Origin: a virus | Length of the DNA: 45,647 nt | IMG/VR virus record: IMGVR_UViG_3300018083_000048 | Location: 1-45,647 of that record | Strand: one strand, 5' to 3' | In this document: positions 1-45,647 of the stretch, one piece after another | Position numbering within the stretch: the first letter of the stretch is position 1 | Layout of the letters: every line of letters starts with the position of its first letter | The notes under the pieces: generated by a model | Told to the model about the DNA's origin: nothing | The model's input: the letters and a program-made list of their open reading frames with translations, nothing else | The model's database searches: none | Position numbers and translations under genes: made by a program

Positions 1-123
1 AATTCGTCGCGGCCGAAAAGGATCCGGAGCGGCTCCGCGTTTTCATCAATACCGTACTCGGCCAGGTGTGGACGTCGAAAGGCGAGGCGCCGGAGTGGGC
101 GGGCCTCTACAACCGCCGCGACA
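1..123. repeat. Terminal direct repeat, left copy (contig circularity)
   Basis: These 123 bases are identical to 45525-45647. The repeat lies inside the large terminase gene, whose reading frame continues exactly across the junction. The simplest reading is overlap left by assembling a circular or circularly permuted molecule, not a biological terminal repeat. The unit genome is then about 45,524 bp. Confidence 0.95.
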
Positions 124-1097
124 CGTACGCGATCGGCTCCGTTCCCATGGGCGCGCTCGTGCTCACGTGCGGCGTCGACGTCCAGAAGGATCGCCTGGTG
201 TACGAGGTCGTAGGATGGGGCCGCGGCAAGCGGTCATGGTCGATCGACGCCGGCGAGATCCCGGGCGATCCGGCGAACGTCGAGCGCGGGCCCTGGGGCG
301 AGCTCGAGAAATTGACGGCGCGCCTATTCCCGCACGACGCCGGGATCGAGATGCCGATCCGATTGCTCGCGATCGACTCCGGGTACGAGACGCAGCACGT
401 ACACGCCTGGGTCCGTCGGCCGCACTCGACGCAAGTGATCGCCGTGAAAGGGTTCGATCACGGCGGCGCGATCATCGGTTCACCGGCGCCCGTCGAGATC
501 ACGATCAGCGGGAAGAAACGGAAACGCGGCGGCCGCGTGTGGCCGGTCAGCACCGGGATCGCGAAGTCGGAATTCTATGGGTTCCTTCGTCTCGAGCGCG
601 AGGCGGGCAAGCCAGATCCCGCCGGGTACGTGCGATATCCGGAGTACGCGGAGGAATGGTTCCGACAGATCACCGCCGAGCAATTGACGGCGACGAAAAC
701 CCGCCGCGGGTACATCAAGCTCGAATGGTCGATCCTCCCGGGCCGACAGAATCACGCGCTCGACTGTCGGGTCTACGCGCGCGCGGCCGCGGCGCTCGCC
801 GGGATCGACCGGATGAATGATCGCGATTGGGACGCGCGCGAGAAATTCCTCGGCGCCGGTTCCACGCCGGCCGCCGCCGCCGCTCGCGCGCGGGCCGCGA
901 GCACCTCACCGGCGCCAGGCTCGAGCGCGCCGGCCTCGAGCGCGCCGACGGCCGCGAGCTCCCCGGCGCCGGCGCCTCCGCTCCGCCCTGGGCTAGTTCC
1001 GCGGCCGCCGCCCGCGAGTAGTCCATCACCGGCGCCGGGCAAGCCCGGCCGGCCGACGTGGGTTCCGCCGCGGCCCGATTGGCTGAAACCCCGTTGA
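1..1097 (+). CDS. Terminase large subunit, C-terminal part (continues from 44540)
   Basis: This is the 3' portion of the large terminase gene; the 5' portion is at 44540-45647. The window enters the gene in frame at base 3. The segment carries the C-terminal nuclease half of lambda gpA-type terminases: CGVDVQKDRL (an acidic-site motif typical of the family), AIDSGY, and a late NHALDC motif. The last ~80 residues are an Ala/Pro/Ser-rich low-complexity tail not usual for the family. Joined around the circle, the protein is 693 aa from the ATG at 44540, slightly longer than lambda gpA. It cuts concatemeric DNA and drives packaging into proheads through the portal. Confidence 0.95.
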   Translation, partial: FVAAEKDPERLRVFINTVLGQVWTSKGEAPEWAGLYNRRDTYAIGSVPMGALVLTCGVDVQKDRLVYEVVGWGRGKRSWSIDAGEIPGDPANVERGPWGELEKLTARLFPHDAGIEMPIRLLAIDSGYETQHVHAWVRRPHSTQVIAVKGFDHGGAIIGSPAPVEITISGKKRKRGGRVWPVSTGIAKSEFYGFLRLEREAGKPDPAGYVRYPEYAEEWFRQITAEQLTATKTRRGYIKLEWSILPGRQNHALDCRVYARAAAALAGIDRMNDRDWDAREKFLGAGSTPAAAAARARAASTSPAPGSSAPASSAPTAASSPAPAPPLRPGLVPRPPPASSPSPAPGKPGRPTWVPPRPDWLKPR

Positions 1098-1315: not shown

Positions 1316-1525
1316 ATGCCGTTCACGACGACGGACGCCGAAAACCTCCGACGCGCGATCGCTGACGCGCGAGGCGCGCGATCGATGACGTTCAGCGATC
1401 AAACCGTCGTGTTCAATTCGCTCAAGGAAATGCTCGATCTCCTGGCCGTGATGGAGGCGGAGGCCGCCGCGGCCGCCGGCACGAGCGTACGGTACCGGAT
1501 CGGCACGACGAGCAAGGGCGCATAG
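1316..1525 (+). CDS. Head-tail connector, gpW-like
   Basis: A 69-aa protein directly downstream of the large terminase, the position of gene W in lambda (A-W-B). Its size equals lambda gpW (68 aa). The pattern fits the gpW family: an N-terminal helix (ENLRRAIADARGARSMTF), a short beta segment ending in VVFNS, then a helix (LKEMLDLLAVMEAEAAAA), with a basic tail. gpW plugs the portal after DNA packaging and forms the platform for tail attachment. The start is the ATG at 1316, and no convincing Shine-Dalgarno precedes it. In lambda the portal gene follows directly; here four glycan genes intervene. Confidence 0.8.
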   Translation: MPFTTTDAENLRRAIADARGARSMTFSDQTVVFNSLKEMLDLLAVMEAEAAAAAGTSVRYRIGTTSKGA

Positions 1526-1538
1526 GGGATCGCGCCTC

Positions 1539-2273
1539 ATGGCCGCGCCGATCCTCGCGTCCGTCTACTTCGGATCGGGCGCCGCCGGCGATCACTTCCG
1601 CCGGATGGCCCGGGCCCTCGAGTACTCGGCGCTCCGTCACGCGCCGGCCTGGCGCGTCGAGGTGCGACAGGTTCCGCCGCCGTCCGGCGTCTACCGCTCG
1701 ACGCTCGGCGTTCCCGCTCATGAGCACAACTCCGCGAAGCTCGATCACTGGCGCGACAGAATCACGGCCGCGGCCGACGGGGATCGCGTGCTCCTGATCG
1801 ACGTCGACACGATGATCACGGGCCCGCTCGATCCCGTGTGGGATCTCCCGTTCGATCTCGCCTACACGTCGGCGGCCGAACGGCTCCCGCTCAACGCCGG
1901 CGTCGTGTTCGTCCGTGTCTCGCCGTCGACGCGGGGGTTCCTCGAGCAATGGGCCGCCGTGAATCGTTCCTTCCTGGGCGACGCGGCCGCGCTCCGGCCC
2001 TGGCGCGCGCGCTACGCCGGGATCAACCAGGCCGCGCTCGGGTTCATGCTCGAGCGCGCGGGGCACGGCTGCCAGGTCGCACGGCTCGACGGCGCGATCT
2101 GGAATTGTGAAGATTCCACGTGGCGCCGGTTCGATCCGGCGACGACGCGGATCGTTCACCTGAAAAGCGATCTCCGCCGCGCGATCTTCCGCGGGCTCGC
2201 GCGGCCGGCGCTCTCGACGCTCGTCGCCGCCTGGCGCGAGCTCGAGGCCGCGGCGATCGAGGCGCACCGATGA
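1539..2273 (+). CDS. Glycosyltransferase, GT-A fold with DxD motif
   Basis: A 244-aa protein that opens the glycan cassette inserted between gpW and portal. The N-terminal beta strand (PILASVYFG), the metal/nucleotide-sugar motif LLIDVDTMI (DxD near residues 89-91) and the later LNAGVVFVR and NQAALGFML segments resemble GT8-like or nucleotide-diphospho-sugar transferases. It probably transfers a sugar from an NDP donor; donor and acceptor cannot be read from the sequence. Its stop overlaps the ATG of the next gene (ATGA), which implies coupled translation. A related enzyme, at 3922, lies two genes downstream. Confidence 0.75.
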   Translation: MAAPILASVYFGSGAAGDHFRRMARALEYSALRHAPAWRVEVRQVPPPSGVYRSTLGVPAHEHNSAKLDHWRDRITAAADGDRVLLIDVDTMITGPLDPVWDLPFDLAYTSAAERLPLNAGVVFVRVSPSTRGFLEQWAAVNRSFLGDAAALRPWRARYAGINQAALGFMLERAGHGCQVARLDGAIWNCEDSTWRRFDPATTRIVHLKSDLRRAIFRGLARPALSTLVAAWRELEAAAIEAHR

Positions 2274-3928
2274 TCCCGCCGCTCGTGAGCGTGATCGTTC
2301 CCTGCCACAATCACGGGGCCGTCGTCGGCGACGCGATCGCGAGCGTGCTCGAGCAACCGATCCCCGTGGAAGTGATCGTGATTGACGACGGTTCGACGGA
2401 CACGACGCCGGCCACGCTCGCGGCGATCGAGGATCCCCGCGTCCGAACGATGCGCCAGGAACACAGCGGGCCGTCGAGCGCGCGGAACCTGGGGATCGAG
2501 CTCGCGCGCGGGGCGTTCGTGATGTTCCTCGACGCCGACGACACGATCGAACCGACGAAGCTCGAGACGCAGATCGCCGCGTTCGACGAGACGGTCGGCT
2601 GGGTCCTGTGCGACGTCGAGATACAGGACGCCGCGAAGCAACGGACGATCACGGCCTCCGAACAATACCGCTACGATCGGCGCGAGTTCGGCGGATGGAT
2701 CGCGCCGATGCTCCGCCGCGGCAACGTGATCCCGATCATGTCGCCGCTCGTGCGACGCGAGACGATCGGATCGATCCGGTTCGACGACGCGCGCGTTCCG
2801 GAGGACTGGCACTTCTGGATCGCGATCGCGGAGGCGGCCCGTTGTCGCTACGTTCCGGAGGTGCTCGCGACGTACCGCCATGGGATCACCGGCCGGAGTC
2901 GGCTCCCGAAGTCGGCGCGCCAGGCGCATAGCGGGATCCGCTCGCCGCTCCGCTTGAACCTTGGATGCGGGAACCCGGCCGATCGATCCTGGCATCCGCT
3001 CCCGGGCCTCGTGAACCTCGACAAGTCGCTCGGCTGGAAATTCGAGCACGGGCTCGGCGAATTCGCCGCGGGCACCGTCGCAGGGATCACGATCTCGCAC
3101 GCGCTCATGTATCTCGCGGCCGACGCCTGGCCGGCGTTCGTCGAGGAGCTCGCGCGCGTGCTCGAGCCTGGCGGCGTCGTGCGGATCACGGAGGACGAAA
3201 CCCGCGACGCGCGATCGAGGTGTGTCGGCGGATGGAAGGGATCGCACCCGGCGATCACGCTCACGTCGCCGGCGTTCGTCCGCGCGAACCTTGAGGCCGG
3301 CGGGTTCACCGTCGTCGACGTCGCGCCCGACGAAACCCGGTACCGCGATGCGTCGCTCTGTCAGCGGTTCCACGGCGGGCCGCCCGACGTGTTTTTCGTC
3401 GAGGGCCTCAAGCGGAACGCGCTTCTATTCGCGCCGCACTCCGACGACGAGGCGCTGTTCGCCGCGTTCACCGTGCAACGCGCGCGGCCGCGGATCGTGA
3501 TCTGCTATCCGTCCGTCCGCGACTACGGCGACACGTACCGCCGGACGGAGGAGTCGCGCGCCGCGGCCGCCATCCTGGGCGCCGGGCCCGTCGAGCAATG
3601 GCAGGGCGGCAACCTCGCGGCCCGTATGCGCGCGCTCGTCGCCGATCACGGGATGCCGGCGGAGGTGTGGGCGCCGTCGCCGAACGCATCGCACGCCGAT
3701 CACGTCGCCGTCGCGGTCGCCGCGCGCGAGGTGTTCGGCGCCGGCGTTCGCCGGTACCAGACGTATCGGGGCGCCGAACGGGTTCGCGAGGGGCGCCAGG
3801 TCAGCCCGGGCACGGCCGACGCGATCGGGCGCAAGCTCCGCGCGCTCACGTGCTACCGCTCGCAACTCGAGCACCCGCGAGCCTCGCCGTTTTTCCTCGA
3901 CGATCAACGGGAGTACGAGGAATGCTAA
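2270..3928 (+). CDS. Three-domain fusion: GT2 glycosyltransferase - SAM methyltransferase - PIG-L deacetylase
   Basis: A 552-aa protein. Residues 1-225 form a family-2 glycosyltransferase (VSVIVPCHNHG, VIVIDDGSTD, FLDADDTIEP carrying the DxD). Residues ~226-380 are a class I methyltransferase of the LNLGCGNP type, with a following LARVLEPGGVVRI strand. Residues ~384-552 match PIG-L/LmbE zinc-dependent N-acetylglucosamine deacetylases: LLFAPHSDDEALF holds the metal-binding His-x-Asp-Asp, and SHADHVAVA the distal His pair. One polypeptide could transfer, methylate and deacetylate a sugar. The start is the ATG at 2270, which overlaps the upstream stop; longer in-frame starts run into the preceding gene. 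The domain order is as seen; the substrate is unknown. Confidence 0.85.
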   Translation: MIPPLVSVIVPCHNHGAVVGDAIASVLEQPIPVEVIVIDDGSTDTTPATLAAIEDPRVRTMRQEHSGPSSARNLGIELARGAFVMFLDADDTIEPTKLETQIAAFDETVGWVLCDVEIQDAAKQRTITASEQYRYDRREFGGWIAPMLRRGNVIPIMSPLVRRETIGSIRFDDARVPEDWHFWIAIAEAARCRYVPEVLATYRHGITGRSRLPKSARQAHSGIRSPLRLNLGCGNPADRSWHPLPGLVNLDKSLGWKFEHGLGEFAAGTVAGITISHALMYLAADAWPAFVEELARVLEPGGVVRITEDETRDARSRCVGGWKGSHPAITLTSPAFVRANLEAGGFTVVDVAPDETRYRDASLCQRFHGGPPDVFFVEGLKRNALLFAPHSDDEALFAAFTVQRARPRIVICYPSVRDYGDTYRRTEESRAAAAILGAGPVEQWQGGNLAARMRALVADHGMPAEVWAPSPNASHADHVAVAVAAREVFGAGVRRYQTYRGAERVREGRQVSPGTADAIGRKLRALTCYRSQLEHPRASPFFLDDQREYEEC

Positions 3929-4626
3929 CGATCCTCACGTGGAAGTGGGGATCGAAATTCTCCGCGCGTCACGTGAACACGCTCCGATCGATGCTCGCGC
4001 GCCGGCTCTCGCTCGAGCACCGGATCGTCTGTGTCACCGACGACGACGCCGGGATCGACGACGCGATCGAAACGATCCGGCTCCCGGCCCGCCATGCCGA
4101 CTCGCCGCGATGCCGGCGCCGGATGCGACAGTACGATCGTACGTTCGCCGAACTGATCGGCCCGCGGATCCTGTCGCTCGATCTCGACGTCGTGATCACG
4201 GGCGACATTACGCCGCTCGTCGATCGCGCGGATCCGCTCGTGTGCTGGCGCGTCGAGTACGCGGGCGTGTTCTCCGGTTCGATCGTCCTGATGGACGCCG
4301 GCGTGCTCGATCCGCTCTGGCGCGCGTTCGACGCGGATCCCGTCGGCTACGCCAGGCGCGCGGCTCCGCGCGGCGTCGGCAGCGATCAGGCGATGCTCAA
4401 TTGGTATCTGTCGCAACCGTCGACGACGATCCGGCCGGCCGTGTGGACGGAGGCCGACGGGCTCGTGACGTTTTTCGGCGCCGGATACGAGCGGCTCGAG
4501 CACCGCGGCGTCGGCCCTGGCCATCCGCACCTCCCGCCAGGCGCGCGGCTCGTCGTGCTCGGCTCCGACGATCTATACGTCCTCGAGCAAGGGGAGCGGT
4601 ACCCGTGGATCAGCGAATGGCGGTAA
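3922..4626 (+). CDS. Glycosyltransferase, GT-A fold with DxD motif
   Basis: A 234-aa protein with the same plan as the first cassette enzyme: a short N-terminal strand (LTILTWKWG), a central ILSLDLDVVITGD segment with the DxD, then a hydrophobic strand reading FSGSIVLMDAG, and SDQAMLNWYL. This layout fits GT8-like transferases. The ATG at 3922 lies within the end of the fusion gene (7-base overlap), and its own stop region overlaps the next start. The cassette is therefore translated as a coupled unit. Donor and acceptor are not readable. Confidence 0.7.
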   Translation: MLTILTWKWGSKFSARHVNTLRSMLARRLSLEHRIVCVTDDDAGIDDAIETIRLPARHADSPRCRRRMRQYDRTFAELIGPRILSLDLDVVITGDITPLVDRADPLVCWRVEYAGVFSGSIVLMDAGVLDPLWRAFDADPVGYARRAAPRGVGSDQAMLNWYLSQPSTTIRPAVWTEADGLVTFFGAGYERLEHRGVGPGHPHLPPGARLVVLGSDDLYVLEQGERYPWISEWR

Positions 4627-5228
4627 ACCTCGTGACGTTCGTTCCGTTCGATCTCGAGGCGAACCTGGGGCGCGCCTACAATCGCGCTATGGAGCTCCTC
4701 CCGGCCGACGCCTGGGCGTGCTTGCTCGATCATGACGCGATGCCGACGACGCGCGAATGGTACCGGCAATTGATCGAAGTGATCGAGCACCGGCCCGACG
4801 TCGGCCTGCTCACGGCGGCGACGAACCGGATCGCGTCGCCGTGGCAGCGGGCAGCCGAAAGCGATCTCGACAATCACGACATGGCGTACCACCGGCGGCT
4901 CGGCGCCGCGCGCCTCGAGCGGCGAACGCTCCTCGACGTGACGGAAACGAAGGGGCTCGGCGGCGTGCTCATGTGTCTGTCGCGCCGGGCCTGGGAGCGC
5001 GCCGGCGGGTTCGTCGATGGAATGCTCTGCGTCGATCACATGATGCACTTCGCGATCGCGCGCGCGGGCCTCAAGGTCTACGTCGTCGAAAGCCTGTACG
5101 TCTATCACTGGCGCCGGGCGAACGGCGACAATCTCCCCGCGAGCGTACCGAAGGCCCGGCATTGTCCATGCCGCGGGCCGGAACCGACGCCGACGCGGCG
5201 GATCTCGATCGTTCCGGAGAAGGGGTAA
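4617..5228 (+). CDS. Family 2 glycosyltransferase
   Basis: A 203-aa GT2-like protein. LVTFVPFDLEANLGRAYNRA is a strand-loop-helix at the donor-binding end. WACLLDHDAMPT contains the metal-binding DHD, GLGGVLMCLSRRAWERAGGF is typical of the GT2 acceptor region, and a later Cys/His stretch ends the protein. Phage GT2 proteins of this compact type usually lack membrane anchors, as here. The ATG at 4617 overlaps the preceding stop. It is the last gene of the cassette, followed directly by the portal gene with a good GGAGAAGGGG ribosome site. Confidence 0.75.
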   Translation: MAVNLVTFVPFDLEANLGRAYNRAMELLPADAWACLLDHDAMPTTREWYRQLIEVIEHRPDVGLLTAATNRIASPWQRAAESDLDNHDMAYHRRLGAARLERRTLLDVTETKGLGGVLMCLSRRAWERAGGFVDGMLCVDHMMHFAIARAGLKVYVVESLYVYHWRRANGDNLPASVPKARHCPCRGPEPTPTRRISIVPEKG

Positions 5229-5230
5229 CG

Positions 5231-6796
5231 ATGACACCTGAAAGAACCGAACGCCGCCGCCGGACGATCGGCGATCGTCTCGACGCGATCACGGCGCCGA
5301 TCGCGCCACGCTGGACACTCCGGCGGCAACGGGCCCGCTACGCCGGCGAGGTGCTCTCTCGACATTACGAGGGCGCCGCGACGACGGCCAGGACATCGGG
5401 CTGGCGTCGGCCGGCGACGGATGCGAACGCGGCGATCGGGCCCGCGGCCGCGAACCTCCGGAACGCGGTTCGGGATCTCACGCGCAACAATCCGTACGCG
5501 GCCGCGGCGCTCGCGTCGATTGTGAACGAAACGGTCGGATGGGGGATCGTCGCGGAGTCGCCGAACGCGCGCGCCATGGCGCTCTGGCGGAAGTGGGCCG
5601 AAACGAAAGCCTGCGACGCCGACGGGCAACACGATATCTACGGACTCCAAAAGCTCGTGCTCCGCACCGTCGCGCAGGACGGCGAGGTGCTCGTACGCCG
5701 CCGGTTCCGGCTCCCGATCGACGGCCTCCCGATCCCCGTGCAGCTTCAAGTGCTCGAGGCCGATTACCTCGACACGATGAAGGATCAGATCACGACGCCG
5801 AACGGCGGCCAGGTCGTACAAGGGATCGAGTTTTCCCCGATTGGCGAACGCGTCGCGTACTGGCTGTTTCGCGAGCACCCGGGCAGTATTCGCGGATCGT
5901 ACGCGCCGTCGGTTCGGATCCCGGCGGAGGGCGTGCTCCATCTATTCCGCGGCGAGCGGCCCGGCCAGGTCCGCGCCGTGTCGTGGTACGCGCCGTCGCT
6001 CCTCGGCTGGAAAGATCTCGACGATTACGACGACGCGACGCTGGTGAAACAAAAGATCGCCGCGTGCCTGGCCGTGTTCGTCCGCGACGATCTCGACGGC
6101 ACGGGATCCCCGCTCGGCGAACCGAACGACGTTCCGACGCCGGCGATCGATGCGCTCTCGCCTGGCATGATCAGCAACCTCCCGGCCGGCCGGCAGATCT
6201 CCGTCGTCGAGCCTCCGCGCGTGAACGATTTCGGCGACTACATGGATCGCAAGCTCCGCGGGCTCGCGAGCGGGCTCCGCGTGCTGTTCTCGAGCATGAC
6301 CGGAGACTTCCGCGATCTGTCGTTCTCGGCGGCGCGGATGGAGCGGATCGCGCATCAGCCCGACGTCGACGACAACCGATGGAGACTTTTGATCCCGGGT
6401 TTCTGTGATCCCTCCTGGGCGTGGGCAATGGAGGCGGCCGCGATCGCCGGGCTCCTCAATTCGGCGGAGGTTCCCGCCGTCGAGTGGACGCCGCCGCCGC
6501 TCGCGTTTATCGATCCGGCGTCGGAGGGGCTCGCGATCCTTCGCAACGTGCGAACCGGGATCTCGACGATGCAGGAGGAGCTCCGCGCGCGCGGGCTCAA
6601 CCCGGCGAAGGTCCTCGCCGAAATAAAGGCGTGGAACGCGATGCTCGACAAAGCGGGCGTCGTGCTCGACTCCGATCCGCGAAAGATGACGCAAGCCGGC
6701 ATGGCGCAGAGCGCGCCCGCGGCCGCGTCGCCGTCGGCGCCTCCCGCTCCCCCCGAACCCGCGGCGCCGGCGGAGGCTCCGGAGGAGGACACGTAA
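5231..6796 (+). CDS. Portal protein, lambda gpB family
   Basis: A 521-aa portal protein. The family is recognised from RDLTRNNPYAAAALASIVN near residue 80, the wing and stem region containing QDGEVLVRRRF and VLEADYLDT, and the conserved DFRDLSFSAARMERIAHQ stretch of the lambda/phage-21 type. It forms the dodecameric ring through which DNA enters and leaves the head. The C-terminus is Ala/Pro-rich. The start is the ATG at 5231, preceded by GGAGAAGGGG. Lambda gpB is similar in length. Confidence 0.93.
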   Translation: MTPERTERRRRTIGDRLDAITAPIAPRWTLRRQRARYAGEVLSRHYEGAATTARTSGWRRPATDANAAIGPAAANLRNAVRDLTRNNPYAAAALASIVNETVGWGIVAESPNARAMALWRKWAETKACDADGQHDIYGLQKLVLRTVAQDGEVLVRRRFRLPIDGLPIPVQLQVLEADYLDTMKDQITTPNGGQVVQGIEFSPIGERVAYWLFREHPGSIRGSYAPSVRIPAEGVLHLFRGERPGQVRAVSWYAPSLLGWKDLDDYDDATLVKQKIAACLAVFVRDDLDGTGSPLGEPNDVPTPAIDALSPGMISNLPAGRQISVVEPPRVNDFGDYMDRKLRGLASGLRVLFSSMTGDFRDLSFSAARMERIAHQPDVDDNRWRLLIPGFCDPSWAWAMEAAAIAGLLNSAEVPAVEWTPPPLAFIDPASEGLAILRNVRTGISTMQEELRARGLNPAKVLAEIKAWNAMLDKAGVVLDSDPRKMTQAGMAQSAPAAASPSAPPAPPEPAAPAEAPEEDT

Positions 6797-6800
6797 GATC

Positions 6801-7037
6801 ATGGGCGAGGATCGAACCGTGCACTGGCCCGACGAACGCGACGAGCACCGGCGCCGCGGCGGCCCGTTTCTCGAGGCGGCGATCTCCCCGTCGGCGCTCG
6901 CGGCGAAGTGGGGCGTCGGCGTGCAAACGATCTACCGCGACATCCGAAAGGGCGCCCTCCGCGCGTACCGGCTGCCTGGCGGCGATCTCCGGATCCGGAT
7001 CCGTGACGCGCGCCGCTATGGAAAACCTGTCGAGTGA
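6801..7037 (+). CDS. Helix-turn-helix protein (MerR/excisionase-like)
   Basis: A 78-aa protein with one DNA-binding domain: SPSALAAKWGVGVQTIYRDI reads as a helix-turn-helix, followed by a short wing with GDLRIRIRDARRY, as in the HTH_17/excisionase group. It lies between portal and protease-capsid genes, an unusual place for a regulator. With no integrase in the genome, an excisionase role is unlikely. Regulation of late genes or a packaging accessory role are alternatives. Confidence 0.65.
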   Translation: MGEDRTVHWPDERDEHRRRGGPFLEAAISPSALAAKWGVGVQTIYRDIRKGALRAYRLPGGDLRIRIRDARRYGKPVE

Positions 7038-7112: not shown

Positions 7113-9125
7113 ATGTCGCGCACGGCCGCCGCTCCTCAGACGACGATCGACGTTCCGCCGCTCTCACTCCTCGCGCGCGCCGTCGTCGAGACGGCGAACG
7201 ACGAGGATCGCTCCGTCGAGCTTGTGTTCTCGACGGGCGCCGCGGTCGAGCGGTACGACTGGATGAAGGACACGCGATATCTCGAGCAACTCGAGATCTC
7301 GAAAAAGGCGATCCGCGTCGCGCGCCTCAACACGGCGCCGCTCCTCGACGCTCATTCCGCGTGGTCGATCACCGATCAGATCGGAACCGTTGTCGCCGGG
7401 TCGTTCCGGATCGACGGCACCGACGCGATCGTCCGCGTCCGATTCTCCGCGCGCGAGGCCGTCGCGGGGATCTGGCAGGACGTCAAGGATCGGATCATTC
7501 AGAACGTGAGCGTCGGCTATCGCGTTCACAAATTCGAGGAGGACGCGACCGGCGCGATCCCCGTTCGTACGGCGGTCGATTGGGAACCGTACGAGGTGTC
7601 AATGGTCCCGATGCCGGCCGACGTCGGCGCGAAGGTTCGCAATCACGAGCTCGCGACGAATTCTTGCATTCTCATCCGAAAGGAAACTGCCGTGGCTGAT
7701 CCCGCTCGCCGTCCTGCCGATTCGATCGCCGAAGATCCCGCCGTCGCCGCCCTCCGGCTCCACCCGGCCGGCGATCCCGCCGCGCCGGCGCGTCCCGCCG
7801 CGACGGAACCGACGGACGCCGATCGCGCCGTCGCCGTCGAGACGACTCGCGTTCAGGGCATCATCACCGCGGCGCGCGCCGGCCGGATGCCGCAGGCGTT
7901 CGTCGACGATCACATCGCGAAGCGGACGCCGCTCGAGGAGGTATCGCGCCTCGTGTTCGTCGAGCTCCAGGCCCGCAACGCGCAGGATCGCGGGCCGCAG
8001 CCCGGGCCCTCGATCGCGCTCGGCGAAGATCCGCTCGTGCACGTGCGAACGGCGATCATGGGCGCGCTCTGTCACCGCGTCGCGCCGACGTTTTTCAAGC
8101 TCGAGGACGCGCACCGGCCGTACCGCGGGCTCACGCTCCTCGACACGGCGCGCGCGTATCTCCACGCGGCCGGCGTCCGCACGACGGGCCTGTCGAAGAT
8201 GGAACTCGCGGCCGCCGCCCTGGGCCTCAATCAGCGGGCCGGCCACGGGTACCACACGACGAGCGACTTCGCGTTCCTCCTGGCCGACGTCGCGAACAAA
8301 ACGGTTCGCCGCGCGTACGACGAGGCGCCGCAGACGTTCAAGACGATCGCGCGCCAGGTCAACCTCCCCGATTTCAAGCCCGTCTATCGTACGCAGATGG
8401 GCGACGCGCCGGCGCTTCTCGAGGTCAAGGAGCACGGCGAATTCAAGCGGGGCACGATCGGCGAGGCGCGCGAGGCGTTCCAGCTTGTGACGTACGGCCG
8501 CGTGTTCGCCATCACGCGAAAGGCGCTCGTGAACGACGACGCCGACGCGTTCGGCCGCGTCCCGACGATGTTCGGCCGCGCGGCCCGCACGCTCGAAAGC
8601 GATCTCGTGTGGGATCAGATCACGAGCAATCCGATCATGGGCGACGGGAACGCGCTGTTCTCCGCCGCGCACCTCAACATCGATTCCGTAGGGTCGGAGA
8701 TCGACGTCGATTCCCTGGGCGAAGCGCGCGCGAGTATGCGCCAGCAGGTTTCGCTCGACGGCGAGCGGCTCAACATCGCGCCGAAGTACCTCCTCGTGGG
8801 CTCCGCCCTCGAGACGCGCGCCGACTCGATCGTCGTGCCGATCACGCCGCAGACGTTCACGGCCGTCAATCCGTTCTCCGGCAAGCTCACGGTCGTCGCG
8901 GAACCGCGGCTCGACGATCAGCCGCTCGCGTGGTACCTCGCCGCCGATCCCGCGCAGATCGATCTGATCGAATACGGATTCCTCGAGGGCGAGGAGGGGC
9001 CGACGATCGAGACGCGGATCGGGTTCGACGTCGACGGGATCGAGATCAAGTGTCGCGAGGATTTCGCGGCGAAGGTGCTCGACTGGCGCGGGCTGTTCAA
9101 GAACGTCGGACACGAGCACTCGTAA
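7113..9125 (+). CDS. Prohead protease - major capsid protein fusion
   Basis: A 670-aa protein. Residues ~15-175 form a caudoviral prohead serine protease: LLDAHSAWSITDQIG with His81, NVSVGYRV with Ser133, and the closing EVSMVPMPAD. Residues ~190-300 are Pro/Ala-rich and helical, fitting a scaffold. Residues ~300-670 look like a Mu gpT-type/HK97-fold major capsid protein, with a terminal DGIEIKCREDFAAKVLDWRG strand. After assembly the protease should cleave the fusion and release the capsid subunit. No separate capsid gene exists nearby. The ATG at 7113 follows a 75-base gap. Confidence 0.88.
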   Translation: MSRTAAAPQTTIDVPPLSLLARAVVETANDEDRSVELVFSTGAAVERYDWMKDTRYLEQLEISKKAIRVARLNTAPLLDAHSAWSITDQIGTVVAGSFRIDGTDAIVRVRFSAREAVAGIWQDVKDRIIQNVSVGYRVHKFEEDATGAIPVRTAVDWEPYEVSMVPMPADVGAKVRNHELATNSCILIRKETAVADPARRPADSIAEDPAVAALRLHPAGDPAAPARPAATEPTDADRAVAVETTRVQGIITAARAGRMPQAFVDDHIAKRTPLEEVSRLVFVELQARNAQDRGPQPGPSIALGEDPLVHVRTAIMGALCHRVAPTFFKLEDAHRPYRGLTLLDTARAYLHAAGVRTTGLSKMELAAAALGLNQRAGHGYHTTSDFAFLLADVANKTVRRAYDEAPQTFKTIARQVNLPDFKPVYRTQMGDAPALLEVKEHGEFKRGTIGEAREAFQLVTYGRVFAITRKALVNDDADAFGRVPTMFGRAARTLESDLVWDQITSNPIMGDGNALFSAAHLNIDSVGSEIDVDSLGEARASMRQQVSLDGERLNIAPKYLLVGSALETRADSIVVPITPQTFTAVNPFSGKLTVVAEPRLDDQPLAWYLAADPAQIDLIEYGFLEGEEGPTIETRIGFDVDGIEIKCREDFAAKVLDWRGLFKNVGHEHS

Positions 9126-24036: not shown

Positions 24037-24852
24037 ATGAACCCGCCGGCGCCCTACTACCAGCATCAAGGGATCACGATCTACCGGGCCGACTGTTTCG
24101 AGGTGCTCCACACGCTCGAGGGCGTCGGCGCGTACGTGACCGACGTTCCGTATTCCAGCGGAGGCGCGTTCCGCGGGGATCGGATGTTCTCGACGCTCAG
24201 CAAGTACGCGAGCTCCGATAGTTCTCAGCAGGCGGGGATCGGGTTCACCGGCGACAATCGGGATCAGCGGGCGTTCCTGGCGTGGTGTTCGCTCTGGATG
24301 TCCGCGGCTCGAGGCGCCGCGGCCGACGGCGCCACGTTCGCGACGTTCATCGACTGGCGGCAACTCCCGACGATCACCGACGCGATCCAGGCCGGCGGAT
24401 GGGTATGGAGGGGCGTCGGCGTCTGGTCGAAAAAATTCGGGCGGCCGCGGGATGGCGGGTTCTCCGGCGCGTGTGAGTTTCTCCCCTGGGCCTCGCACGG
24501 CTCGCTCGTCGAGAGCGGCGCGTATCCGTCCGGCGCTTTCGAGTACTCGCCGCCGCCTGTCTCGAGGCGCCATCACCTCGCCGAAAAACCGCTCCCCGTG
24601 ATGGAGTGGGCAATGGCGAATGTTCCCGCCGGCGCGCTCGTCGTCGATCCGTTCATGGGCTCCGGCTCGACGCTCGTCGTCGCGAAACGTCGAGGACTCC
24701 GCGCAATCGGGATCGACGTCGACGAGCGCCAGTGTGAGATCGCCGCGCGCCGGCTCTCGCAGGATATGCTCCCGGGCCTCGAGCTCGAGGATCTCGACGC
24801 CGGCGAGCTCGAGGGGCCCGCGCTCCTCCCGCTCGAGCAGGCGGAAGGATAG
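24037..24852 (+). CDS. DNA N4-cytosine/N6-adenine methyltransferase, beta class
   Basis: A 271-aa amino-methyltransferase. The catalytic motif IV comes first as DVPYSS (residues 36-39), a variant of the usual DPPY. The SAM-binding motif DPFMGSGST follows at ~203 with GIDVDERQCEIAARRL, which defines the beta-class order. It would methylate exocyclic amino groups in a specific DNA sequence, probably to block restriction. No cognate nuclease is adjacent. It starts 67 bases after the long hairpin that ends the tail operon. Confidence 0.85.
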   Translation: MNPPAPYYQHQGITIYRADCFEVLHTLEGVGAYVTDVPYSSGGAFRGDRMFSTLSKYASSDSSQQAGIGFTGDNRDQRAFLAWCSLWMSAARGAAADGATFATFIDWRQLPTITDAIQAGGWVWRGVGVWSKKFGRPRDGGFSGACEFLPWASHGSLVESGAYPSGAFEYSPPPVSRRHHLAEKPLPVMEWAMANVPAGALVVDPFMGSGSTLVVAKRRGLRAIGIDVDERQCEIAARRLSQDMLPGLELEDLDAGELEGPALLPLEQAEG

Positions 24853-28232: not shown

Positions 28233-28375
28233 TCCTGATCGCCGGCGGGCTCGCGCTCGTCGGCGTCGTCGCGCTCGCGGTTCGTACGATCGTACGGCTC
28301 CGCCGGCCAGGCGTCGAGGCGCGTCGGCTCTCGAGCCTGGGCACGGTCGAGGCGCACCGGGAGCGACGGCCATGA
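28220..28375 (+). CDS. Small single-pass membrane protein
   Basis: A 51-aa protein. Residues 3-21 (PMILIAGGLALVGVVALAV) form a membrane helix, followed by a basic tail. The basic residues after the helix suggest a cytoplasmic C-terminus. Its stop overlaps the start of the Dam gene. Function unknown. Confidence 0.55.
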   Translation: MAPMILIAGGLALVGVVALAVRTIVRLRRPGVEARRLSSLGTVEAHRERRP

Positions 28376-29004
28376 GTCGCACGAACACGGCCGCCCGCCA
28401 TTCATGCGACTCGCCGGAATGGTTCACGCCGCGCGAGTACGTCGAGGCCGCGCGCCAGGTGCTCGGCGCGATCGATCTCGATCCGGCGTCTCACGTCGAG
28501 GCGAATCGGATCGTCCGCGCGCGCCGGTTCTACACGGCGAAGCAGAACGGACTCCGGCGCCCGTGGGCGGGCCGCGTGTTCGTGAACCCGCCGGGAGGAC
28601 TCACGGCGGAATTCTGGCACCGACTGATCGACGCGTGGGAGGCCCGGGAGATCTCCGCCGCGATCTGGATCGGGTACTCGCTCGAGCAGCTTCAAACGCT
28701 GCAAGGGTACGAGGTGCGATCCCCGCTCGCGTTCCCGTTCTGCGTACCTGATCGCCGGATCCCGTTCGTCGAGTCGACGGCGAAGCGCGATCTCCGGCGC
28801 CAGGCAGTCGAGGTGCACAATCGGAACGTGCGCGAGGCGATCAGGGACGCGGAGAAACGGGGCGACGGCACGAGCGCGATCGGGCCGCTTCGCGAATTCA
28901 AGGCGGCCGCGCAACCGTCGCACGCGAACTACATCACGTACATAGGGCGCGCGTCGGCCAGGTTCGCGCGCGTGTTCGGCGAATTCGGCGAGGTGCGACG
29001 TTGA
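28372..29004 (+). CDS. Phage DNA N6-adenine methyltransferase (Dam family)
   Basis: A 210-aa enzyme of the phage Dam family: SPEWFTPREYVEAARQVLG, the LDPAS motif near residue 36, then FVNPPGG at 70-76, the catalytic NPPx motif. It should add a methyl group to adenine N6; many relatives act on GATC. GATC is remarkably abundant in this genome. It forms a TTGA stop/start overlap with the C5 methyltransferase gene. Confidence 0.85.
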   Translation: MSRTNTAARHSCDSPEWFTPREYVEAARQVLGAIDLDPASHVEANRIVRARRFYTAKQNGLRRPWAGRVFVNPPGGLTAEFWHRLIDAWEAREISAAIWIGYSLEQLQTLQGYEVRSPLAFPFCVPDRRIPFVESTAKRDLRRQAVEVHNRNVREAIRDAEKRGDGTSAIGPLREFKAAAQPSHANYITYIGRASARFARVFGEFGEVRR

Positions 29005-31079
29005 AGTACTTGAGCGTGTGCAGCGGGATCGAGGCCGCCTCCGTCGCGTGGGGCCCGCTCGGATTCGATCCCGTCGCGTTCAGCGAGATCGAACCGTTCC
29101 CGTCGGCCGTGCTCGCTCACCACTATCCGACCGTCCCGAATTGGGGCGACATGATGAAATGGGAGTCGTGGCCTGATGCAATTATCGATGTTCTCGTCGG
29201 AGGAACTCCGTGCCAATCGTTCAGCGTCGCCGGGTTCCGAAAGGGACTGGCTGATCCGCGTGGCAACCTTGCCCTTACGTACCTTGCGATCGCTGATCGA
29301 TATCGCCCCCGTTGGATCGTTTGGGAGAACGTCCCCGGCGTCCTGTCCTCTGTCAGCCATGCCGCGCCCGATCCATGTGCGCCGCCGGCACCTCTGGACG
29401 TGGGACGCGACGGCGCAACAGTGGAGACTGACGACGAGTACGACGGAGAAGAATTACACGCATTCGGCTGTTTCCTGGCCGGATTATCAGAGCTCGGGTA
29501 CGGCGTGGCGTACGGAACTCTTGACGCTCAGTACTTCGGCCTGGCGCAGCGCCGGGAGCGTGTGTTCGTTGTCGGCTATCTTGGAGACTGGCGTCGTAGC
29601 AGCGCGGTACTACTTGAGCGGGGCAGCCTGTCGGGGGATCCTTCGCCGCGCCGCGAAGCGTGGGAAAAAATTGCCGGAACTCTTGGAGGGAGCTCTCAGA
29701 GCGGCGGGTTCAGAACGACGGACCTAGACAACTCCGGCGCGTTCATACCGGAGATCTCGCGCGACGTCGAGACGGCGGGCACACTCGACGCGGGCGACGG
29801 ATCCGCAACGCAGCGCGCCGTCGAGAGTAGTCGACTGATCCCCGTCGAGACGGCGCATTCGCTCGACGCCTACAGCGCCGGCCGCGCGACGGAGGACGGC
29901 ACGGGCCGCGGCTGTCCGTTGATCCCGACGGGCGACGTGATCGCGTTCGACACGACACAGATCACGCACCCGGCGAACCGGAGCAACCCTCAGCCCGGCG
30001 GGACGAGTCCACAACTCGCGGCCGCCGCGCACGCGCCGACGATCGCCTTCTCCGTCAAGGATCACGGCGGCGATGCAACGGAGGAGCTCTCGCCGACGCT
30101 CCGCTCTGGAAACGAGATCAACGCGAACGCGAGCGGCGGCGTGATGCCGGCGATCGCTTTCGAGCCTCGTGTCGCGAGCGGTCGACGGGAGGGGAAGATC
30201 GGCGACACGGCCGGCCCGCTCACGAAAGAATCGGATCGCGGCGACGGGTTCCCGTGTGTCGCGTACGGCGTGCACAGCGATCACTCTGTCGCGATGCGAG
30301 GAAACGGATCGGCCGAAGTCGCGTACGAGACGGATCGCGCGCGCGCCCTCGACACGAACGGCGGGTTCGCGCATTCGCAAGGCGGAACCGTCGTCGCGGC
30401 TCGAGCGGTCGCGTACGGGATAGGCTCGCACGCCGGAGCGGCCGACGCCGAAGTCAGCAACAAAAACCACGCGAGCGGCGGCCCGGCCGGCATGGGCATA
30501 CAGGAGGAGTGCTCGCACTCCATGAGGGCGGGCCGCGTTCCCGCCGTCGCATCGTTTCAGGAGGGCGGCGAGGAGTCGGTCGGGTTCTACGCTCAAGGCG
30601 GAACCCAGGGGATCTCGGCCGACACGACGGCGCCGTCGCTCAAGGTCGGCAACGGCAACGCCGGCCATCAGATCGCCGTCGCGTCGTTTCAGGAGTCGCA
30701 GAGCGGCGCGCGCGTCGGCGAGACGCATCCGACGCTCGACGCGCACAACGGATCGCGACGGCACCAGGGCGTCGTCGGGTTCGCCGACGTCGCCGATCCT
30801 GTCGCCGCCAATCAGGCCCGCACGTACACGCGGGAGGGCGCCGGAAATTTCCGAATGTCCAACGTCGCGCACAGCGCCGTGCAGGTCCGACGGCTCACGC
30901 CGCGCGAGTGTGAACGACTGCAAGGGTTCCCCGACGACTACACGCTGATCCCGTACCGGCGCAAACTCGCCGCCGACGGCCCGCGCTACAAGGCGCTCGG
31001 TAATTCGATGGCGGTTCCGGTCATGCGATGGATCGGGGAGCGGATCGCCATGGTCGACGAGATCGAACCGGAGGAGTAG
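29001..31079 (+). CDS. DNA (cytosine-5) methyltransferase with large insertion
   Basis: A 692-aa C5 methyltransferase. Motif I is SVCSGIEAASVAW, motif IV GGTPCQSFS (catalytic Cys71), motif VI WENVPG (Glu109), motif VIII QRRERVF. Motifs IX-X close the protein (RLTPRECERLQGFPDDYT; YKALGNSMAVPVM). Between VIII and IX lies a ~400-residue insertion rich in short repeats (AGTLDAGDGS, SPTLRSG, SNPQPGG), typical of long phage enzymes, where target recognition is expected. The start is a TTG preceded by GAGGTG. Codons 59-242 also encode an out-of-frame ORF, and there the codon choice departs from the genome norm. Confidence 0.92.
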   Translation: MKYLSVCSGIEAASVAWGPLGFDPVAFSEIEPFPSAVLAHHYPTVPNWGDMMKWESWPDAIIDVLVGGTPCQSFSVAGFRKGLADPRGNLALTYLAIADRYRPRWIVWENVPGVLSSVSHAAPDPCAPPAPLDVGRDGATVETDDEYDGEELHAFGCFLAGLSELGYGVAYGTLDAQYFGLAQRRERVFVVGYLGDWRRSSAVLLERGSLSGDPSPRREAWEKIAGTLGGSSQSGGFRTTDLDNSGAFIPEISRDVETAGTLDAGDGSATQRAVESSRLIPVETAHSLDAYSAGRATEDGTGRGCPLIPTGDVIAFDTTQITHPANRSNPQPGGTSPQLAAAAHAPTIAFSVKDHGGDATEELSPTLRSGNEINANASGGVMPAIAFEPRVASGRREGKIGDTAGPLTKESDRGDGFPCVAYGVHSDHSVAMRGNGSAEVAYETDRARALDTNGGFAHSQGGTVVAARAVAYGIGSHAGAADAEVSNKNHASGGPAGMGIQEECSHSMRAGRVPAVASFQEGGEESVGFYAQGGTQGISADTTAPSLKVGNGNAGHQIAVASFQESQSGARVGETHPTLDAHNGSRRHQGVVGFADVADPVAANQARTYTREGAGNFRMSNVAHSAVQVRRLTPRECERLQGFPDDYTLIPYRRKLAADGPRYKALGNSMAVPVMRWIGERIAMVDEIEPEE
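29176..29727 (+). CDS. Overprinted ORF inside the C5 methyltransferase gene
   Basis: A 183-aa ORF in the +1 frame, wholly nested in the methyltransferase gene, with GGGAG 10 bases before its ATG. It opens MQLSMFSSEELRANRSASPG, has SFGRTSPASC and LLTLSTSAW, and ends in a basic helical stretch (ACRGILRRAAKRGKKLPEL). From memory, similar proteins opening 'MFSSEE..SRSPGS' and carrying 'LETG..P.RYFLS..AC.GILRRA.KRGK.LP' are annotated in many phages at the same nested position. Over these codons the host frame uses CTT, TTA, ACT and GGA codons that are rare elsewhere, as dual coding would require. Function unknown. Confidence 0.75.
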   Translation: MQLSMFSSEELRANRSASPGSERDWLIRVATLPLRTLRSLIDIAPVGSFGRTSPASCPLSAMPRPIHVRRRHLWTWDATAQQWRLTTSTTEKNYTHSAVSWPDYQSSGTAWRTELLTLSTSAWRSAGSVCSLSAILETGVVAARYYLSGAACRGILRRAAKRGKKLPELLEGALRAAGSERRT

Positions 31080-34978: not shown

Positions 34979-35175
34979 CGCCGGCCCGCAAGATCGGATC
35001 GCTGTCCGATCTCCGCCCGGGCGACATCATCCGCGAGATCAGGACGCAGCGCGCGTTCGCCGTGCTCGAGGTCGACGCGGATCGCGCGACGCTCGTGCAA
35101 CTCGTGATCGACGTTCAAAAGGTCGACGCGTACGAACTCCTGAGTCACGCCGACGAGCGACGGGGGCGATCATGA
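34975..35175 (+). CDS. Unknown small early protein
   Basis: A 66-aa protein with a beta-barrel-like pattern (LRPGDIIREIRTQRAFAVLE, ATLVQLVIDV). It lies immediately before the exonuclease gene with a 4-base overlap. Function unknown. Confidence 0.6.
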   Translation: MTPARKIGSLSDLRPGDIIREIRTQRAFAVLEVDADRATLVQLVIDVQKVDAYELLSHADERRGRS

Positions 35176-36233
35176 CGGAACCCGCCGCCGCCGCCGCTCC
35201 GGCTCCGCCGCCGTCGCCGTTCGATCTCGCAAAGGGGATCGAGCGCGCCTGGGGAACGCACCTCGCGCGCTCCGCCAGGACGGCGGAACCGCACCCGTAC
35301 GCCTACGCGTCGGCGTTCCGCAATTGCGAACGCCGGATGGTCTACGAAATGACGACGCCGCAAACGCTCCCGCCCTGGCCGCCGGAGGTGCTCGCGCGGT
35401 TCCGACGCGGCGACGATCGCGAGCGGGATCTCCTGGCCGATCTCACGCGGATCGGCCGCGATGCGGATCCGCCGTTCACGCTCAGCGGGCAGCAGGAACG
35501 GTTCAAGCTCAAGGATCACAAGGGGCGGATCGCGATCTCCGGCAAGGTCGACGCGCGGATCGAGATCGCCGGCGCGCGGGCACCGCTCGAGGTCAAGGCG
35601 TGGTCGCCGATGATGGTCGACCGGATCGAGACGTTCGCGGATCTATTCGATAACCCGTGGACGAAATCCGGCGCCCATCAATTGCTCTCGTACCTGTTCG
35701 GCGCCGGCGAACCGTTCGGATTTCTCCTCCTCGATCGGAGCGGGATCCCGCGGCTCCTCCCCGTCGTGCTCGATCAGCACCTCGAGCACATGGAGGAGTT
35801 TCTCGCGCGCGCGGAACGGGCGATCGATCACGTCGAGGCCGCGACGCTCCCTGATTTCCTTGAGGGCGACGCGGCGGAGTGTAAGCGATGCGCGTGGTAC
35901 GGGCACACGTGCAACCCGCCGCTCGCGGCCGTCGGCGCCGTCGTACTCACCGATCCCGATCTACACGCGGATCTCGCACGCCGCGACGAGCTCGAGGCCG
36001 CGGCGAAGGAATTCGAGAAGCTCGACAAAAAGATCAAGGCGCAACTCCGCGGCGTCGAGGACGGGATCGCCGGCCCGTTCGTGATCTCGGGACGCTGGCA
36101 AAAGAAAACCGGCGTCGTCCTCCCGGCCGACGTCAAGGCCAAGTACACACAGACCGATCCGAAAGGTTCCTTCCGGATCGAGATCGTCCGCGTCGACTCA
36201 CCGGCAACCCCGTTAGAGGAGCAACAACCATGA
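35172..36233 (+). CDS. PD-(D/E)XK exonuclease, RecB/Cas4-like with four-Cys cluster
   Basis: A 353-aa nuclease. The core reads GKVDARIEIAG (Asp127) and LEVKAW (Glu140, Lys142), with GAHQLLSYL (Gln170) as motif IV. Cys52 near the N-terminus together with Cys237, Cys240 and Cys247 (CKRCAWYGHTC) gives the layout that holds an iron-sulphur cluster in Cas4, AddB and related enzymes. A C-terminal coiled coil (ELEAAAKEFEKLDKKIKAQL) follows. It probably resects DNA ends for annealing-type recombination with the protein at 32853. Confidence 0.8.
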   Translation: MTEPAAAAAPAPPPSPFDLAKGIERAWGTHLARSARTAEPHPYAYASAFRNCERRMVYEMTTPQTLPPWPPEVLARFRRGDDRERDLLADLTRIGRDADPPFTLSGQQERFKLKDHKGRIAISGKVDARIEIAGARAPLEVKAWSPMMVDRIETFADLFDNPWTKSGAHQLLSYLFGAGEPFGFLLLDRSGIPRLLPVVLDQHLEHMEEFLARAERAIDHVEAATLPDFLEGDAAECKRCAWYGHTCNPPLAAVGAVVLTDPDLHADLARRDELEAAAKEFEKLDKKIKAQLRGVEDGIAGPFVISGRWQKKTGVVLPADVKAKYTQTDPKGSFRIEIVRVDSPATPLEEQQP

Positions 36234-44418: not shown

Positions 44419-44555
44419 CGCGCCATCACGCGCGGATCGCGGAGTCCTGGGCGAGCACGATCCGCCGCGCGATCGAACTCGGCGAGGGCGACGCCGCCAG
44501 GCGGATCACGATCGGGCTCGTGCGGCGCCTCCGTGAACTATGGGCGCGCGCGTGA
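44415..44555 (+). CDS. Small basic ORF between terminase genes
   Basis: A 46-aa ORF starting at an ATG that overlaps the small terminase stop and ending within the large terminase start. It is helical and basic (IAESWASTIRRAIELGEGDA, ITIGLVRRLRELWARA). Perfect overlap on both sides suggests that it is translated. Function unknown. Confidence 0.55.
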   Translation: MTRHHARIAESWASTIRRAIELGEGDAARRITIGLVRRLRELWARA

Positions 44556-45647
44556 GCGAGAGCGACGCGGACGCCGTTCGCGAGATCCGCAAGGCGCGCG
44601 CCGACGGCCTCCGGCCCGATGCCGTCCTCACCGTGAGCGAGTGGGCCGACGCGCACCGGAAGCTCCCGAAAAAGTCGAGCGCGGAACCTGGGCCCTGGCG
44701 CACGGATCGCGCGCCGTACCTCCGCGAAATCATGGATTCGTTTTCCTCGCGCTCCGACGTCGAGGAGATCGTATTCATGAAGGCCGCGCAGATCGGCGGA
44801 ACCGAAGTCCTCCTCAACGCGCTCGGCTACATCATCGATCACGCGCCCGGGCCCGTGATCCTCGTATGGCCGACGGTCGACACGGCGAAGCGGGGATCCC
44901 GGCAACGCGTCGCACCGCTCACGACGGACACGCCGACGATCGCAGAGAAGATCGCGCCGGCGAAGTCTCGCGACGCGGCGAACACGGTTCTCGAAAAGAC
45001 ATTCCCCGGCGGGCACCTCGTGATCACCGGCGCGAACTCCGCCGTCGGCCTGCGATCGATGCCGGCGCAATACGCGCTCATGGACGAGATCGACGGCTGG
45101 CCGATTGACGTCGACGAGGAGGGCTCCCCGATCGCGCTCGTCGAGGTTCGGCAGCGCACGTTCGCGCGGCGGAAGCGACTCAAGATCTCGACGCCGACGA
45201 TCGCCGGCCGCTCCGCGATCGAGGCCGCGCACGATCGCGGCGACGCGCGCCGGTACTTTGTCCCGTGTCCGATCTGCGGGGAGTTTCAAGAACTCACGTT
45301 TGATCGGCTCGTGTGGACGAAGCTCGATCTCCCGCCGGCGGCAGCCGTGTACGAGTGTGCGGCGTGCGGCGATTACATCCGCAATCATCAAAAGACGGCG
45401 ATGCTCGCCGCCGGCGAATGGCGCGCCACGCACCCGGGCCGCGGCGCCGGGAAGATCCGGAGCTATCACCTCAACGCGCTCTATGCGCCTGTCGGCTGGA
45501 TCTCCTGGGGCGAGATCGCGGTCGAATTCGTCGCGGCCGAAAAGGATCCGGAGCGGCTCCGCGTTTTCATCAATACCGTACTCGGCCAGGTGTGGACGTC
45601 GAAAGGCGAGGCGCCGGAGTGGGCGGGCCTCTACAACCGCCGCGACA
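44540..45647 (+). CDS. Terminase large subunit, N-terminal part (continues at 1)
   Basis: The 5' part of the large terminase gene, open to the end of the window and continuing at base 1. FMKAAQIGGTEVLLNA is the deviant Walker A of the lambda gpA family, YALMDEIDGWP the Walker B, and a zinc-ribbon-like pair (CPICGEFQELTF; CAACGDYI) follows. The ATG at 44540 overlaps the upstream ORF by 16 bases; the GTG at 44552 with a 4-base overlap would give 689 aa. Neither has a clear ribosome site. Confidence 0.93.
   Translation, partial: MGARVSESDADAVREIRKARADGLRPDAVLTVSEWADAHRKLPKKSSAEPGPWRTDRAPYLREIMDSFSSRSDVEEIVFMKAAQIGGTEVLLNALGYIIDHAPGPVILVWPTVDTAKRGSRQRVAPLTTDTPTIAEKIAPAKSRDAANTVLEKTFPGGHLVITGANSAVGLRSMPAQYALMDEIDGWPIDVDEEGSPIALVEVRQRTFARRKRLKISTPTIAGRSAIEAAHDRGDARRYFVPCPICGEFQELTFDRLVWTKLDLPPAAAVYECAACGDYIRNHQKTAMLAAGEWRATHPGRGAGKIRSYHLNALYAPVGWISWGEIAVEFVAAEKDPERLRVFINTVLGQVWTSKGEAPEWAGLYNRRD
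45525..45647. repeat. Terminal direct repeat, right copy
   Basis: Identical to bases 1-123. Together with the continuous terminase reading frame across the junction, it shows that the contig closes on itself. Confidence 0.95.

Follow-up and report, generated by a model that had tools for sequence, protein, structure and literature searches.

The analysis of a 45.6-kb metagenomic soil phage record (IMG/VR IMGVR_UViG_3300018083_000048; the window, 45,647 nucleotides, analysed over its whole length) revealed a gene, P1, whose single product combines a predicted GT2 glycosyltransferase (GT) domain, a compact domain of class I methyltransferase (MTase) fold and a predicted PIG-L de-N-acetylase domain. 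We propose, with a probability of roughly 55%, that P1 is a glycan-building and glycan-tailoring enzyme that works with the products of three adjacent GT-like genes, P2, P3 and P4, and that a virion protein is the acceptor it most likely uses. The GT2 domain would add a sugar onto a growing glycan, and the MTase-fold and PIG-L domains would probably modify this glycan, the former methylating it and the latter N-deacetylating an N-acetylhexosamine to give the free amine, on the same residue or on one neighbouring the sugar added. P1 would act together with the three GT-like proteins from one late-gene block, and this soluble four-protein set would constitute an oligosaccharide builder for virion proteins. 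What the analysis established is the open reading frame (ORF), its predicted folds and motifs, the constraint upon it and the linkage of the cassette; the activity of each domain, the donor, the order of the steps and the acceptor are inferences.

P1 is a single polypeptide of three predicted domains

The P1 ORF is uninterrupted and has no internal stop (Table 1). The original prediction that three domains are fused in this order within one polypeptide agreed with the length of the ORF, the predicted folds and the existence of co-linear relatives, and all the motifs that it quoted were located: VSVIVPCHNHG (residues 6 to 16), DADD (88 to 91), LNLGCGNP (229 to 236), APHSDDEAL (388 to 396) and SHADH (474 to 478). 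The AlphaFold2 model, computed from a 49-row alignment, reached a mean pLDDT of 89.7 and showed three compact domains. Full-length co-linear relatives with about 52 to 82% identity were found on at least a dozen IMG/VR contigs, and they keep D88/D90, E178-D179-W180, N230-L-G-C-G234, D251, H390-x-D392-D393-E394 and H478. The dN/dS values of the individual domains, 0.24 to 0.50, indicated purifying selection in each. Because the relatives keep the motifs and every domain is under purifying selection, the fusion cannot be put down to a frame artefact; the splitting of the ORF by a frame error, named beforehand as the result that would count against the prediction, was not seen in any of these independent contigs, and an assembly artefact is ruled out on the same grounds.

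The N-terminal part of P1 matched PF00535 (Glycos_transf_2) with an E value of 1.2e-29 (103.8 bits; cut-off, 23.3). Its model shows a GT-A fold, with D88-A-D90 and the acidic base motif E178-D179-W180 both invariant. The best structural match was WrtF (Z 25.0 over 189 residues at 2.0 Å), TarP and RmlT followed at Z about 24, and WrtF, TarP, RmlT and TarS together spanned Z 23 to 25. A BFVD search with the whole P1 model yielded matches mainly on the GT domain, among them the GT Q855A2 of phage Che8.

The C-terminal part matched PF02585 (PIG-L) with an E value of 3.6e-8 (34.4 bits; cut-off, 28.2), and its model has the LmbE fold, superposing on 2ixd with Z 18.7 (166 residues, 2.3 Å) and on BshB 6ull with Z 18.4, the matches to BC1534 and BshB spanning Z 18.4 to 18.7. 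Loss of metal ligands in homologues, which would have told against a PIG-L enzyme, was not observed: H390, D393 and H478, together with the base position D392, as well as E394, were invariant in 25 of 25 PIG-L members, a set that took in relatives of only about 30 to 40% identity, PIG-L proteins that stand alone in other phages, and two bacterial MAGs. Stand-alone PIG-L relatives occur in a Gemmatimonadota and a Moraniibacteriota MAG, and no partner resembling the MTase-fold domain was found within those genomes.

Table 1. Positions of P1, its domains and the genes around it in the window, and of an additional gene in related contigs
Feature	Position	Strand	Remarks
Terminase large subunit, C-terminal part	66..1097	+	phrog_15; remainder at 44540-45647, in frame across both window ends
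Small ORF, lambda gpW-like gene position	1316..1525	+	Position alone, compared with Rhodobacter phage RcKemmy
P2, GT-A-like glycosyltransferase (GT8/Nucleotid_trans-like)	1539..2273	+	D88-x-D90 invariant; overlaps P1 by 4 bp
P1, GT2 - compact class I MTase fold - PIG-L	2270..3928	+	552 aa, ATG to TAA
P1 GT2 domain, residues 1-208	2270..2893	+	DDG 39-41, DAD 88-90 and EDW 178-180 invariant
P1 linker, residues 209-224	2894..2941	+	Predicted disordered, pLDDT below 50
P1 compact MTase-fold domain, residues 225-381	2942..3412	+	N230-L-G-C-G234, D251, S276-H277, T307-E-D309
P1 PIG-L de-N-acetylase domain, residues 382-552	3413..3925	+	H390, D392, D393, E394, H478
P3, glycosyltransferase	3922..4626	+	phrog_1962, 4e-9; D86-L-D88 invariant; 7 bp overlap with P1
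P4, glycosyltransferase	4617..5228	+	phrog_14179, 1.6e-19; 10 bp overlap with P3
Portal protein	5231..6796	+	PF05136, 5.8e-95; starts 2 bp past P4
Major capsid and protease fusion protein	7113..9125	+	phrog_4523, 1.8e-212
Extra MTase-like gene of distant relatives	L016:4609-5193, L007:5945-6703, L009:8717-9307, L015:5013-5861, L017:8714-9232, L146:9002-9541		Methyltransf_24-like, weak

The middle domain has a compact methyltransferase fold

The methyltransferase signature, described as clear in the original prediction, held up in part: the LNLGCGNP motif and the fold were recovered, but the Pfam score of P1 is below threshold and the helix that should follow motif I is missing. Methyltransf_11 scored 18.2 bits (E value of 0.0041; cut-off, 21.2) in whole P1 and 20.9 bits, against the same cut-off, on the excised domain. 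The best relative reached an E value of 1.5e-8, and relatives in which PIG-L precedes the MTase-like part scored 25 to 30 bits on the methyltransferase profile. When folded alone, the domain gave a pLDDT of 93.1, and this model has the overall fold of class I SAM methyltransferases (Z 12 to 14), with Z 14.1 to 3dli (136 residues, 2.4 Å) and Z about 13 to the SAM-bound BelI. In two models, however, neither the helix between motif I and strand 2 nor a clear strand 3 was present, and for this reason we speak of an MTase-fold domain rather than of a demonstrated methyltransferase. Given the weak signature and the missing helix, catalysis by this domain is not assured.

The Foldseek matches of the domain included the MTase-like domain of anamorsin, which to our knowledge does not bind SAM, and the models suggest that the P1 domain may not bind SAM either. 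The domain could then be a scaffold without a catalytic role, its SAM binding having been lost, with P1 contributing to glycosylation and deacetylation only, whichever acceptor is used. The absent helix and strand, the anamorsin match and the sub-threshold profile score all point this way; nevertheless, we regard this possibility as somewhat doubtful, since the close family retains N-L-G-C-G and D251, the rate at which the domain evolves is no higher than that of the PIG-L domain, and the compact layout recurs in a Gemmatimonadota protein encoded next to GT-like ORFs.

P1 belongs to a four-gene cassette among head genes

The three neighbouring GT genes, which the original prediction had missed, provide the best clue to the function of P1. 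The junctions along P2-P1-P3-P4-portal measure −4, −7, −10 and +2 bp, and the block lies between the terminase and the portal and capsid genes; this tight packing makes co-expression of the cassette with the head genes likely. In the related Rhodobacter phage RcKemmy, the interval between terminase and portal holds nothing but a gpW-like gene; the small ORF at this position in the window had no match in Pfam. P2 gave a profile match to the UDP-galactose:glucoside-Skp1 galactosyltransferase 6mw5 (Skp1 alpha-galactosyltransferase) at 2.3e-6. Every relative with sufficient flanking sequence carries all four genes, and their linkage persists where terminase and portal are highly diverged and where P2 sits after the portal gene; in contigs L011 and L012, the cassette is located before the packaging genes. 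No membrane segment was detected in P1 to P4 (highest 19-residue hydropathy mean, 1.42), and the proteins are predicted to be soluble.

The terminase gene leaves one end of the window and resumes in frame at the opposite end, so that the record probably represents a near-complete phage genome in circularly permuted form. The capsid-protease fusion protein shares 40% identity with those of Rhodobacter (Rhodobacter capsulatus) phages, and the structural genes as a group are about 40% identical to their proteobacterial phage counterparts, which is too distant for naming a host.

The position among head genes, which is different in L011 and L012, is no more than a circumstantial pointer to a virion acceptor. 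The main rival to virion glycosylation is a change made by the cassette to a glycan of the host envelope, LPS or capsule, in the course of infection or lysogeny, so that receptors are masked and other phages excluded. P1 does resemble GTs of LPS and wall polysaccharides (WrtF, TarP, RmlT) and is weakly similar to GtrB-like PHROGs. In addition, PIG-L, sugar-nucleotide, methyltransferase and GT functions are encoded by separate genes in the Stenotrophomonas phages DLP3 and DLP5, whose authors classed the DLP5 PIG-L as a moron, wrote of host membrane modification and suggested LPS modification for the DLP3 GT (PMC7326821, PMC5834331). In these phages, the deacetylase, methyltransferase and GT genes lie close together (gp96-102; PMC7326821), which recalls the P1 set, but they are separate genes with sugar-nucleotide enzymes alongside, and the DLP3 methyltransferase was tied by the authors to erythromycin resistance (PMC7326821). 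Neither phage was recovered by tblastn with the P1 PIG-L domain. We consider modification of the host envelope rather unlikely, as P1 to P4 have no membrane segment, no flippase or polyprenyl-phosphate GT was recognised among the proteins scanned, and the genes stand within the morphogenesis block and not as a moron with its own context. The make-up of a Gtr serotype-conversion system, with the flippase GtrA and membrane-bound GtrB/GtrC, was likewise not found, no GtrA being present among the proteins scanned.

The domains of P1 are joined differently in other phages

Fusion of the three domains is not obligatory, since in two relatives, L011 and L012, GT2-MTase and PIG-L are encoded by separate ORFs that overlap by 4 bp. 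In the PIG-L tree, this pair nests among the fused proteins, as neighbour of the group to which the window belongs (94/82), and the simplest reading of this nesting is a later split of the fused gene, although two separate fusions are possible. Past the split PIG-L gene, both contigs contain a conserved ORF of about 100 aa without Pfam match (L011:9694-9993, L012:9742-10059).

Further phage proteins combine the same domain families in one chain, and several of their contigs hold GT2-like ORFs. The order is reversed, PIG-L then MTase, in L148/L170, L149/L187, L177 and L202, whereas L188 has no MTase part and joins GT2 to PIG-L through a TPR stretch; L170, L177, L202 and L188 fall apart from the GT2-MTase-PIG-L family in domain trees. 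The L177 protein has about 260 extra N-terminal residues without Pfam match. In additional contigs, most of which also carry GT2-like ORFs, the MTase-like or PIG-L domain stands alone. That the same domains have been joined repeatedly and in differing arrangements suggests that they serve one common pathway, and the arrangements in L170, L177, L202 and L188 in particular point to linked MTase and PIG-L activities.

Distant relatives carry, between P1 and P3, an extra MTase-like gene (LEFGPGSSTLALIEGG ... ALIDGP) that is missing from the window. As to cellular sequences, 200 genomes from a single phylum were searched for the MTase-fold domain, with a single weak match, a similar compact MTase-like ORF adjoining GT-like ORFs. 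The Gemmatimonadota ORF L206:4-2049, which has the same compact MTase layout (VNVGCGPFVLPGFLNLD) and GT-like ORFs beside it, may represent the family from which the domain came in cells.

The claim that no phage system with this domain order had been described was in line with our searches, as none turned up in 50,697 phage records or in the literature searched. No chain like P1 was found among these records, none of which covered 80% of P1, and tblastn with the MTase-fold or PIG-L domain alone gave no match at an E value of ≤0.01. Nor was a chain similar to the MTase-PIG-L part found among 72,556 plasmids. A seed-based scan of 84,980 species genomes, incomplete as such scans are, returned single-domain matches only, and a cellular origin of the whole fusion is thus not supported. 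The literature on PIG-L with GT and MTase in phages, as far as it was covered, yielded DLP3 and DLP5 as the only relevant cases. The lack of recognisable MTase-like and PIG-L matches in annotated phage records implies that cultured phages sample little of this chemistry.

Proposed function of the cassette

We favour the building and tailoring of a glycan because the GT2 domain has donor, metal and catalytic-base motifs and a Z score of 25, the PIG-L domain has a complete metal site, the middle domain has a class I MTase fold with Z 14, and P1 to P4 co-occur, pack among head genes and lack membrane segments. A virion acceptor is further suggested by analogy with two known systems. In chlorovirus PBCV-1, A064R fuses two GT domains and one MTase and both builds and methylates the terminal part of the glycan on the major capsid protein, as part of a virus-encoded, mostly soluble glycosylation set (PMC9614988). 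Like P1, it is one viral polypeptide that joins GT and class I MTase domains; unlike P1, it has two GTs and no deacetylase and belongs to an algal virus, and the likeness is one of functional analogy. In cluster O mycobacteriophages, three tandem GTs and an O-methyltransferase modify the capsid and tail tube (PMC11600133, citing Freeman et al. 2023); this combination recalls the cassette, but there the enzymes are encoded by separate genes and PIG-L is not mentioned in that account. Glycosylation by multi-domain viral enzymes is therefore known, while the GT2-MTase-PIG-L set and its shuffling among phages appear undescribed in the sources searched.

That P1 adds, methylates and N-deacetylates a single sugar residue, as first envisaged, is one possibility among others. 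A bolder version, which we think unlikely, would have one polypeptide carry out HexNAc transfer, N-deacetylation to the free amine and O- or N-methylation as successive steps, giving virions a positively charged coat of methylated aminosugars; the domains, variously fused, split or reordered from phage to phage, would form an exchangeable toolkit for glycan tailoring. If true, such a coat would be one not described for any phage.

It is very improbable that the enzymes instead make a diffusible aminosugar metabolite of the bacillithiol or antibiotic kind. The nearest solved PIG-L enzymes are indeed BshB-type (2ixd, 6ull) and share the fold and metal site of P1, but these BshB/LmbE-type deacetylases are stand-alone enzymes. 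The substrate of BshB is a small thiol precursor; no ligase or acyl-transfer genes were recognised in the cassette, and an oligosaccharide is a better fit to four GT-like proteins in a row. Least probable of all is glycosylation of phage DNA, for which the original prediction had proposed a glycan analysis: phage GTs can act on DNA, as in T-even phages (mentioned in PMC9614988), but no nucleotide hydroxymethylase or base-hypermodification gene, only ordinary DNA methyltransferases, was recognised among the approximately 35 window proteins scanned with PHROGs, many of which had no match at all.

Few systems of phage virion glycosylation are known, and such glycosylation affects the recognition of phages by antibodies. 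With its conserved four genes and a central fusion of three predicted activities, the cassette offers a compact, testable way to reach a phage glycan that is probably new. It could serve as a marker for virion-glycosylating phages in metagenomes, and P1 is a candidate for use in producing glycans of the methylated glucosamine type.

Other features of the genome

A small HTH_17-like ORF (6801-7037) lies between the portal and capsid genes. The window, of 45 kb, contains three DNA methyltransferase genes (24037-24852, 28372-29004 and 29001-31079). In the second of these, the Dam domain is confined to the N-terminal part. The third encodes a C5-cytosine DNA methyltransferase (PF00145) in which a Gly/Ala/Ser-rich, repeat-like insert of about 400 residues separates the N-terminal motifs from the C-terminal part. 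A candidate Cas4-like exonuclease is encoded at 35172-36233 (phrog_1990, 2.5e-6).
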